The notes under the pieces are model-generated. The model was not told the DNA's origin. It saw only the letters and a program-made list of their open reading frames with translations, and made no database searches. From contig NZ_CANKUD010000010.1 in the NCBI RefSeq assembly GCF_947486615.1, forward strand, positions 1 through 64,000: DNA of 64,000 bases, written 5' to 3'. Made by a program: the position numbers and the translations under genes. Shown here one piece after another: positions 16,204 to 18,456 of this stretch. The stretch's first letter is position 1, and each line of letters begins with the position of its first letter. Source of the DNA: an uncultured Modestobacter sp. (GTDB lineage Bacteria; Actinomycetota; Actinomycetes; Mycobacteriales; Geodermatophilaceae).

Positions 16204-18456
16204 GTGATCTCCACCCAGCCGGCCCTCTCGACGATCGACGAGGTGCTGCACGCCGCCGCCGTGCACAGCGTCTACCAGCCCATCGTCGAGCTGGACACCG
16301 GCCGGGTCGTCGCCTACGAGGCCCTCGCCCGGGGGCCGCAGGGCCCGCTGCACACCCCGGACGCGCTGTTCGCCGCGGCCCGGGCCGCCGGCCGCCTCGC
16401 CGAGCTCGACCGGCTGTGCCGCTCGGCGGCGCTGCGCGGGGCGGTCGAGGCCGAGCTGCGCCCGCCGCTCACGGTCTTCGTCAACGTGGAGCCCGAGGTG
16501 CTGGAGTCGGCACCGATGGACGAGCTGCTGGCCATCGCCACCACGGCACCGGCCGGCCTGCGCGTGGTCGTGGAGATCACCGAGCGGGCCCTGGCGACCC
16601 GGCCGGCAGACCTGCTGCGCACCGTCGAGCGGGTGCGCGAGGTCGGCTGGGGCGTGGCGCTGGACGACGTCGGCGCGGAGTCGATGTCGCTGGCCTTCAT
16701 GCCGCTGCTGCGTCCCGACGTGGTGAAGCTGGACCTGCGGCTGGTGCAGCAGCGCCCCGGCCCGGCGGTCGCCGAGATCATGAACGCGGTCAACGGCTAC
16801 GCCGAGCGGACCGGCGCGCTGGTGCTGGCCGAGGGCATCGAGGACGAGGAGCACCTGGCCATGGCCTCGGCGCTGGGCGCGAGCCTGGGCCAGGGCTGGC
16901 ACTTCGGGCGCCCCGGCCCGACCGCGGTGACCGACCGCCCCGTCGGCTCCCTCGACCTGCCCTGCGCAGAGGTGCGCGTGGCCGGTGCCACCGACTCGCC
17001 GTTCGGCTGCCTGCCCGAGGGCACCCAGCTGCGCACCGCGCCCAAGGCGCTGCTGATCGAGCTGAGCAAGCACCTGGAGCGCCAGGCGATGCGGCTCGGC
17101 GAGACCTGCGTCGTCACCGCCACGTTCCAGGAGGCCCGGCACTTCACCCCGGCCACGTCGCTGCGCTACCGCGACCTGGTGGCCCGCACCGGTTTCGTCG
17201 CCGCCCTCGGCGAGGACCTGCCGGTCGAGCCGGTGCCCGGGGTGCGCGGTGCGCACCTGGCGGCCACCGACCCGGTGCGCGGTGAGTGGGACGTCGTGGT
17301 GCTCAGCCCGCACTTCAGCGCCGCGCTGCTGGCCCGCGACCTGGGCGACTCCGGCCCGGACCGGCAGCGGCGGTACGAGTACGCGCTGACCTACGACCGC
17401 CGCACCGTCGAGCGGGCCGGCGTCGCGCTGGTGGCCCGCGTCGCCGCCCAGCCGGCGCCGGCCACCCCGGCCGACCCCGGCCGCGACCGCCAGCCCACCG
17501 CGGCCGCGGTGGCCCGTGACGGCGGGACGGTCGAGGAGGTGCTGCTGCACCGGGCGCTGGCCGCGACGACCAGCGGCGTCGCCATCGCCGACATGACCGC
17601 CCCCGACCAGCCGCTGCTGTACGTCAACGCCGCCTTCGAGCAGCTCGCCGGGCTCAGCGCCGCCCAGGTGCTGGGCCGCAACTGCCGGTTCCTGCAGGGC
17701 CCGGACACCGACCCGGGGGTGGTCGCCCGGATGCGCGCGGCCATCCGCGAGGGCGCGGAGTTCCGGGCCACGCTGCTCAACCACCGGGGGCCGGACCGGG
17801 AGCCGTGGTGGAACGAGATCCACCTGGCGCCGGTGCTGGACGCCAGCGGTGCCGTGGTGCAGTACATCGGGGTGCAGACCGACGTCACCGCCCGGGTCAC
17901 GGTGGAACGCGAGCTGCTGCAGGAGCGCGACCGCACCCGGCGTCACCTGGCCCAGATCGAGGAGCTGGCCTACACCGACCCGCTCACCGGGCTGCCGAAC
18001 CGGCGCCGCTTCGAGGAACGGATGGAGGCCGCGCTGTGGCAGGCCCGGCTGGGCGGGGACGCCGTGGCGCTGCTGTTCCTCGACCTGGACGGGTTCAAGG
18101 CGGTCAACGACGCCCGCGGCCACGCGGCCGGCGACGAGCTGCTGCAGGTGGTCGCCGACCGGCTGCGCGCCCGGCTGCGCCGCGGCGACCTGCTCGCCCG
18201 GCTGGGCGGTGACGAGTTCCTCGTCGGCCTGCCCGGCCTGGACCCGGCCACCGCGCTGACCGAGGCCTGGCAGGTGGTCGGGCAGCTGTGCGCCGCGCTC
18301 GCCGAGCCGGTGCTGCTGGGCGGGGAGCCGGTGCGGGTGTCGGCCAGCATCGGGGTCAGCGTGCACCCCGAGGACGGCGCCGAGTTCGGCCCGCTACTGC
18401 ACCGGGCCGACGCCCGGATGTACGCCGGCAAGCACCCCGCCGACGCAGCCGGGTAG
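16204..18456 (+). CDS. EAL-DICT-LOV-GGDEF protein: putative blue-light-regulated c-di-GMP enzyme
   Basis: Soluble 750-residue protein combining c-di-GMP hydrolysis and synthesis modules with sensing. The EAL domain spans about 10-245 with E39 in YEALAR, a DD pair, KLD and EGIE. A DICT-like sensory region covers about 265-415. A LOV/PAS domain lies at about 443-560 with GRNCRFLQG, whose C494 matches the flavin-adduct cysteine, and with the conserved glutamine in YIGVQTDVT. The GGDEF domain (585-745) has GGDEF at 668-672 and the inhibitory RxxD site (RRGD) five residues before it. No membrane segments. All catalytic signatures look intact, so net activity is uncertain. Confidence 0.9.

Follow-up and report, generated by a model that had tools for sequence, protein, structure and literature searches.

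In our study, the window (the whole stretch of 64,000 nucleotides from an uncultured Modestobacter sp. that was analysed) was found to contain a gene for a protein with the domain order EAL-DICT-LOV-GGDEF, which is a standing protein family conserved in Geodermatophilaceae. With modest confidence, we favour the explanation that light switches on a diguanylate cyclase in this protein, which is joined by a tether to an EAL domain tuned by a ligand. The preliminary description of this gene was confirmed in its observations and partly supported in its interpretation. Beyond it, the present analysis adds the class of the linker, the build from two modules, the doubt over loop 6 of the EAL domain, the spread of the protein across the family together with natural GGDEF losses, and the predicted fold of the DICT domain. 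The features of the gene were found as follows.

16204..18456, + strand: whole EAL-DICT-LOV-GGDEF gene, a single open reading frame of 750 amino acids with a GTG start (Pfam).
16243..16914, + strand: EAL domain, residues 14-237 (Pfam, 138.6 bits; residue census; alignments; fold).
16663..16692, + strand: EAL loop 6, 10 residues, non-canonical (residue census; alignments).
16993..17445, + strand: DICT domain, residues 264-414, with a predicted phospholipase D/TrmB-like fold (Pfam; model; fold; motif scan).
17467..17520, + strand: DICT-LOV tether, residues 422-439, disordered and hypervariable (pLDDT below 50; spacing; pN/pS).
17551..17892, + strand: LOV domain, residues 450-563 (Pfam PAS_9/PAS; alignment; residue census).
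17683..17685, + strand: codon of Cys494, the expected flavin-adduct cysteine (alignment; residue census).
17875..17877, + strand: codon of Gln558, the LOV flip glutamine (residue census).
17881..17985, + strand: LOV-GGDEF linker, 35 residues, 560-594 (DVT..DPL), predicted helical at 562-589 (linker definition as given in the accessible text of PMC10396304; model).
17968..18435, + strand: GGDEF domain, residues 589-744 (Pfam, 143.6 bits; residue census).
18178..18189, + strand: inhibitory I-site RRGD, residues 659-662 (residue census).
18205..18219, + strand: GGDEF motif, residues 668-672 (residue census).

The GC content by codon position of the reading frame 16204-18456 was 81/50/98%, and 14 further genomes of this genus contained full-length or near-full-length matches of 82-87% identity; the frame is therefore a real gene. 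The closest named relatives were mostly Modestobacter contigs (83-86% identity), followed by Blastococcus and Geodermatophilus. The preliminary description had reported an intact EAL signature at E39, a DICT-like region, the LOV core GRNCRFLQG with C494 and the flip glutamine Q558, and GGDEF at 668-672 with an RRGD I-site (R659-x-x-D662), and all of these were found at the positions given there. The profile match of DICT (PF10069) covered residues 277-379 and scored 45.3 bits, above the cut-off of 23.8. The residue C494, on which that description had staked its LOV assignment, aligned with the cysteine of the LOV domain in 8c05, a LOV-diguanylate cyclase of solved structure.

A total of 161 non-redundant open reading frames of the DICT family were gathered, where redundancy meant identical DICT segments. 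A quick EAL-DICT tree was made from 157 of the 161 rows, as rows shorter than 250 residues were left out. It contained 73 A-type proteins (EAL-DICT-LOV-GGDEF, linker of 35 residues), 16 C-type proteins (linker of 21), 15 A-type proteins with a degenerate GGDEF, 12 B-type proteins (EAL-DICT-LOV), nine D-type proteins (EAL-DICT with a degenerate GGDEF, no LOV), three GGDEF-EAL-DICT proteins and 29 EAL-DICT proteins, some of the last being cut, or possibly cut, at the ends of contigs or fetched segments (e.g. L029, L251). One A-type and one B-type copy were found in the source genome (EAL-DICT query, E 1e-30 or better). This B-type paralogue, L002 (G000:C14:87269-89017), was an EAL-DICT-LOV protein devoid of GGDEF and 69% identical, and most of the B-type copies had a common C-terminus that ended in DSPGARRA or nearly so.

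In LOV domains, two asparagines contact the flavin and a glutamine is the flip residue. The residues Cys494, Asn526, Asn537 and Gln558 were invariant in all 119 LOV-bearing members of the DICT family (119/119), and a chance resemblance to LOV is excluded by this identity. By its residues, the LOV domain of the window protein appears to be a canonical photoreceptor domain. Its GGDEF domain contained an intact motif, DLD, N-D-H residues and I-site; the second Asp of DLD varied among relatives and was present in 54 of the 73 A-type rows. The earlier proposal of blue-light control over c-di-GMP is thus well supported at the level of sequence by the canonical LOV, the canonical GGDEF and the 35-residue linker, and we infer that the window protein binds flavin and is activated by light.

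The linker between LOV and GGDEF was taken to begin at the Asp of D(I/V)(T/S) and to end at the Leu of DxLT; by this definition, classes of 35 and 21 residues are given in the accessible text of PMC10396304. In the same portion of that paper, light activation is reported as more than 10,000-fold with the long-linker LOV-GGDEF and about 15-fold with the short one (Vide et al. 2023, PMC10396304). The linker of the window protein was exactly 35 residues, the length of the experimentally light-switched long-linker LadC class. Since the A and C groups were themselves defined by linker length, the two lengths were counted over all 106 DICT-family rows containing both LOV and GGDEF, using a stricter pattern: 35 was read in 87 rows, 21 in 15, and four were left unread. 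By their LOV-GGDEF distance, L205, L242 and L244 were 35-like and L216 was 21-like, and these four were assigned by eye before the trees were made. The rows from a later class-wide search again contained linkers of 35 or 21 only. Readings of 49, 13 and 62 were rejected as artefacts of the pattern, which had matched an APVxDA(S/T) stretch or another D.LT-like word.

The LOV-to-GGDEF model distance was 11 in 72 of 72 A-type rows, and the DICT-to-LOV distance ranged between 44 and 88. In the predicted model, the linker was a single helix (562-589) and the tether residues 422-439 had pLDDT below 50; the full-length model (pTM 0.56) did not fix the placement of the domains relative to each other. 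The fixed spacing of LOV and GGDEF, together with the variable, disordered tether between DICT and LOV, points to two rigid modules that are loosely connected. Among 13 Modestobacter A-type sequences, the median pN/pS was lowest in EAL and the coil (0.17 each), followed by DICT (0.19), LOV (0.32) and GGDEF (0.37), and reached 1.11 in the tether; the medians of the coil and the tether come from fewer pairs than those of the domains. The strongest constraint was therefore on EAL, DICT and the coil; these values are simple pairwise counts, given as medians over related pairs and distinct from a formal selection test. Five linker residues of MsLadC, for which PDB 8c05 was taken, were mapped by hand on the window protein. 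Leu129 and Leu146 were kept as Leu571 and Leu588, whereas Asn126, Tyr145 and Ile149 were replaced by Glu568, Glu587 and Thr591. With three of the five mapped residues different, the tight dark cage may fail to form, which speaks against carrying the LadC mechanism over unchanged.

The EAL domain of the window protein contained nine intact catalytic positions, E39, N94, E124, E127, D154, D155, K175, E210 and Q230, which include the EAL glutamate, the metal ligands and the base. All nine agreed with RocR, PdeA and BlrP1 in the alignments. However, loop 6, which is DDFG(T/A)G(Y/F)S in the active EALs of the same alignments, was non-canonical, and a DDVGA-type loop or a near variant of it was found in nearly all members of the DICT family, including the stand-alone EAL-DICT proteins. 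FimX and LapD are inactive EALs. The modelled EAL fold matched PdeA with Z 25.4, BlrP1 with Z 24 and FimX and LapD with Z 23-25; because it resembles the active PdeA and FimX/LapD alike, the fold cannot decide the activity. Loop 6 is described as needed for EAL activity in the accessible text of PMC5845226, and phosphodiesterase activity is therefore only putative despite the nine intact residues. Both c-di-GMP activities had been proposed earlier for the protein, which is half supported; the nine residues speak for the second activity and the loop, which that proposal had overlooked, speaks against it. In the residue census, the EAL catalytic positions were conserved throughout the groups with scattered exceptions: R at 39 in one A-type row, P at 127 in one C-type row, deviations at 210 in at most two B-type rows, and deviations at several positions in one or two of the stand-alone EAL-DICT rows. 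Truncated or misaligned ends account for some of the exceptions.

The sequence of DICT had no relative in the PDB (best E 0.91). The DICT-only model had a mean pLDDT of 94 and matched the TrmB sugar-binding domain (2f5t) with Z 11.3 over 125 residues at 3.3 A, and NucT (6ehi) with Z 10.5 over 131 residues, the identity to this domain and to the phospholipase D family (2f5t, 6ehi) being 7-10%. Other matches were TrmBL2, vaccinia F13, polyphosphate kinase (PPK1), PLD1/3/4, Zucchini, FAM83B, Nuc and BfiI; matches such as PPK1, Zucchini, PLD3 and BfiI we take to be proteins of the phospholipase D fold. The Z scores were 9-11 overall, and the fold tool itself notes a best Z of 7 to 8 as typical for models that have no clear match. 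Foldseek returned the same fold weakly (best E 3.8e-4; TMq 0.42-0.55 and probability 0.97-1.00 in the first 16 rows). The HxKx4D (HKD) motif was found in the DICT domain of 0 of 161 members by motif scan, so DICT is at most a fold relative of the phospholipase D superfamily and not a phospholipase D enzyme. The Pfam TrmB family (PF11495) gave three partial matches in 149 genomes, too few for a profile comparison. By analogy with TrmB, the predicted fold suggests that DICT is a ligand-binding, non-catalytic domain. The second signal that had been proposed at DICT is rated plausible, and the predicted fold gives it a concrete form. In the accessible part of a review, DICT is listed among putative sensors for which no physiological purpose can be discerned (PMC8846402), and in what was available of another paper its role in a light response is cited as a prediction. 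No description of the EAL-DICT-LOV-GGDEF architecture or of the DICT fold was found in the literature searched, which lay mostly outside subscription journals.

Among 396 genomes spread over the phylum, at least 24 contained a match with an E-value no worse than 1e-50, and at least two, the source genome and G107, had a row that extended from EAL to GGDEF. Among 112 genomes of the family, at least 89 contained a match at 1e-60, and at least 76 of them had a row, among those printed, from residue 85 or before to residue 734 or beyond. A class-wide search with LOV-GGDEF over 394 genomes gave at least 11 matches: the source genome, one family member and nine others. The nine others all contained EAL-DICT-LOV-GGDEF (9/9), and four of them had copies with linkers of 35 and 21 together; the 35 copy of one of these four, G859, lacks its start. 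These counts are lower bounds, as two (phylum), nine (family) and five (class) candidates were scored per genome. The domain order had been called unusual, which holds for the phylum but not for the family. Another order beginning with EAL was observed in L256, L257 and L258, from three genomes of the same family, which contained EAL-LOV-GGDEF with a 21-residue linker and no DICT match (Pfam: L258). L104 (Aciditerrimonas) was a GAF-GGDEF-EAL-DICT protein.

Parsimony on the EAL-DICT tree gave eight changes between an intact and a degenerate or absent GGDEF among the A, C, B and D rows. The GGDEF was degenerate in 14-15 A-type and nine D-type rows and absent in 13 B-type rows. The LOV residues were intact in the degenerate A-type and the B-type rows, where LOV probably has some role even with no cyclase. 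In the clade with degenerate GGDEF, the pN/pS of LOV was 0.25 and that of GGDEF was relaxed to 0.58. In the D-type rows, LOV and the GGDEF motif were gone; as EAL was kept while GGDEF, and in D-type also LOV, was lost, EAL-DICT is the common core. In the C-type rows, the pN/pS of EAL, DICT, LOV and GGDEF was similar (0.34-0.38). The Blastococcus loci L077, L078, L086 and L093 contained a second EAL-DICT gene downstream, with a degenerate GGDEF and no LOV.

The classes of 35 and 21 were found apart in the EAL-DICT trees, including a careful tree of 57 rows from which six long-branch rows were omitted and in which A-type was thinned. The tree of LOV-GGDEF placed the 35 class in one clade (100/98) and 18 of the 21 rows of the 21 class in another (99/94), beside which rows of LOV-GGDEF outside the DICT family were placed with weak support (68/66). 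A repeated gain of LOV-GGDEF by EAL-DICT was considered and dropped, as the AU test left one clade of A and C unrejected (p 0.384). For A plus L145/L149, the AU test gave p 0.727 with a likelihood above that of the free search. From the trees and the AU results, neither a single nor a repeated origin was demonstrated. In genus g53, L145 from one species was an EAL-DICT-LOV-GGDEF protein with the 21 linker and its tree sister L149, from another species, was EAL-DICT only; this difference is a recent gain or loss.

The gene was present on the + strand, flanked on the minus strand by a pheS gene and by a gene for an RNA methyltransferase of the TrmH type, the two neighbours being named here from their sequence. 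Transcriptional read-through of this minus-strand TrmH-pheS run (15010-19383) would be antisense to the EAL-DICT-LOV-GGDEF gene. Among 36 loci (L069-L104), an opposite-strand pheS was found upstream in 22, adjacent or about 1 kb off, with TrmH downstream in 18 of those; L076, whose upstream part is short, contained TrmH only. These 23 loci were all Geodermatophilaceae by title, and the remaining 13 contained neither gene. The recurrent neighbours support vertical descent in the family and are silent on function. The window contained a further c-di-GMP protein, a GGDEF-EAL protein of 834 amino acids (46139-48643, + strand).

In the explanation that we favour, the protein would be a cytoplasmic, probably homodimeric c-di-GMP receptor-enzyme with two rigid modules, EAL-DICT and LOV-GGDEF, on a flexible tether. 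The LOV-GGDEF module would be a long-linker, LadC-like switch in which the GGDEF is held off in the dark. Blue light would form the Cys494-flavin adduct, the signal would be relayed by Gln558, and the 35-residue linker would form a coiled coil and turn the diguanylate cyclase on, with the RxxD site acting as feedback on the cyclase. The EAL-DICT module would be the unit that is found alone in other actinobacteria, in which DICT, with its non-catalytic phospholipase D/TrmB-like fold, would bind a small ligand and tune the EAL, and the EAL would hydrolyse, or at least bind, c-di-GMP. The c-di-GMP of the cell would thus be set by blue light and a metabolite through one polypeptide. More tentatively, DICT may be a catalytically dead metabolite receptor of the phospholipase D/TrmB fold and, at the same time, the whole family a two-input c-di-GMP rheostat, in which light drives synthesis via a coil of 35 or 21 residues (two heptads apart) and the metabolite drives an unorthodox EAL across the loose tether.

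The non-canonical loop 6, the differing linker residues, the modest Foldseek E-values for DICT and the low pTM of the full-length model count against the favoured explanation, and so do two further observations. The LOV was retained in B-type and degenerate relatives that have no working cyclase, so LOV can matter without one, and the EAL and DICT of the C-type were no more constrained than their LOV and GGDEF. The former agrees with a rather improbable alternative, in which the EAL is the real output and light, together with DICT, controls c-di-GMP hydrolysis, the GGDEF being accessory, GTP-binding or dispensable. The EAL residues kept in every group bar scattered rows, the GGDEF degenerate or absent in many, and the intact LOV of degenerate A-type and B-type rows (LOV 0.25 against GGDEF 0.58) would fit it, and SL2 (LOV-GGDEF-EAL) hydrolyses c-di-GMP under blue light according to the accessible text of PMC8846402. 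However, the Modestobacter A-type kept its GGDEF and the 35-residue linker under constraint (pN/pS 0.37; coil 0.17), a path from LOV to EAL has to cross the disordered tether, and loop 6 is non-canonical.

That same loop is the argument for the reading, which we consider unlikely, that the EAL is a non-hydrolytic binder of c-di-GMP (or of pGpG or a protein) and the protein a cyclase activated by light that carries its own product sensor. Nearly all members contained DDVGA or a close variant in place of DDFG(T/A)GYSS, while binding alone would not obviously demand the nine catalytic positions with their metal ligands, all kept across distant members bar scattered rows. The binding-only EALs LapD and FimX have lost several catalytic residues, which also counts against this reading; the requirement of loop 6 for catalysis, as described in the part of PMC5845226 that was available, counts for it. 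It is highly improbable that the LOV reads the redox state of its flavin or oxygen, instead of or besides light. The accessible text of PMC8846402 discusses RmcA of Pseudomonas as an example of this, but RmcA is given there as having no adduct cysteine, and the retention of Cys494 in all 119 LOV members is unexplained by redox sensing.

Geodermatophilaceae live in desert soil and on rock, habitats in which light, desiccation and growth on surfaces coincide. The natural pairs of 35 and 21 copies let the LadC switch model be tested beyond the proteins studied so far, with the natural losses of GGDEF as controls. The phospholipase D/TrmB fold that is predicted for DICT, with no catalytic residues, would turn a domain of seemingly no purpose into a question of ligand binding.

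Fusions of LOV, GGDEF and EAL are already known; here they occur in a conserved order of their own. The window protein resembles LadC (as described in the accessible text of PMC10396304) in having a canonical LOV followed by a GGDEF with RxxD and a linker of exactly 35 residues, and its residues 542-643 aligned to 8c05 with no gap. It differs in the N-terminal EAL-DICT module and in three of the five mapped linker residues. The LadC set was restricted to proteins with exactly one LOV and one GGDEF, as stated in the same text (PMC10396304); the window protein contains one of each plus EAL-DICT, and may work like LadC but is not filed as LadC. With SL2 of Synechococcus elongatus and the LOV-GGDEF-EAL type it shares LOV, GGDEF and EAL in a single protein, whereas it begins with EAL, contains DICT and does not follow the order LOV, GGDEF, EAL; the LOV-GGDEF-EAL relatives compared had linkers of 21 where readable, except for one reading of 60. 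The stand-alone actinobacterial EAL-DICT proteins (L095, L097-L100, L102, L149) share EAL and DICT at 35-52% identity and, wherever it was readable by the scan, a DDVG-type loop 6, but contain neither LOV nor GGDEF. The predicted fold of DICT is like that of the TrmB sugar-binding domain and the phospholipase D family (2f5t, 6ehi NucT), from which it differs by the missing HKD motif and the missing DNA-binding domain. BlrP1 (BLUF-EAL, 3gfx) likewise combines a blue-light sensor with an EAL, whereas it contains BLUF rather than LOV, no GGDEF, and a canonical loop 6.
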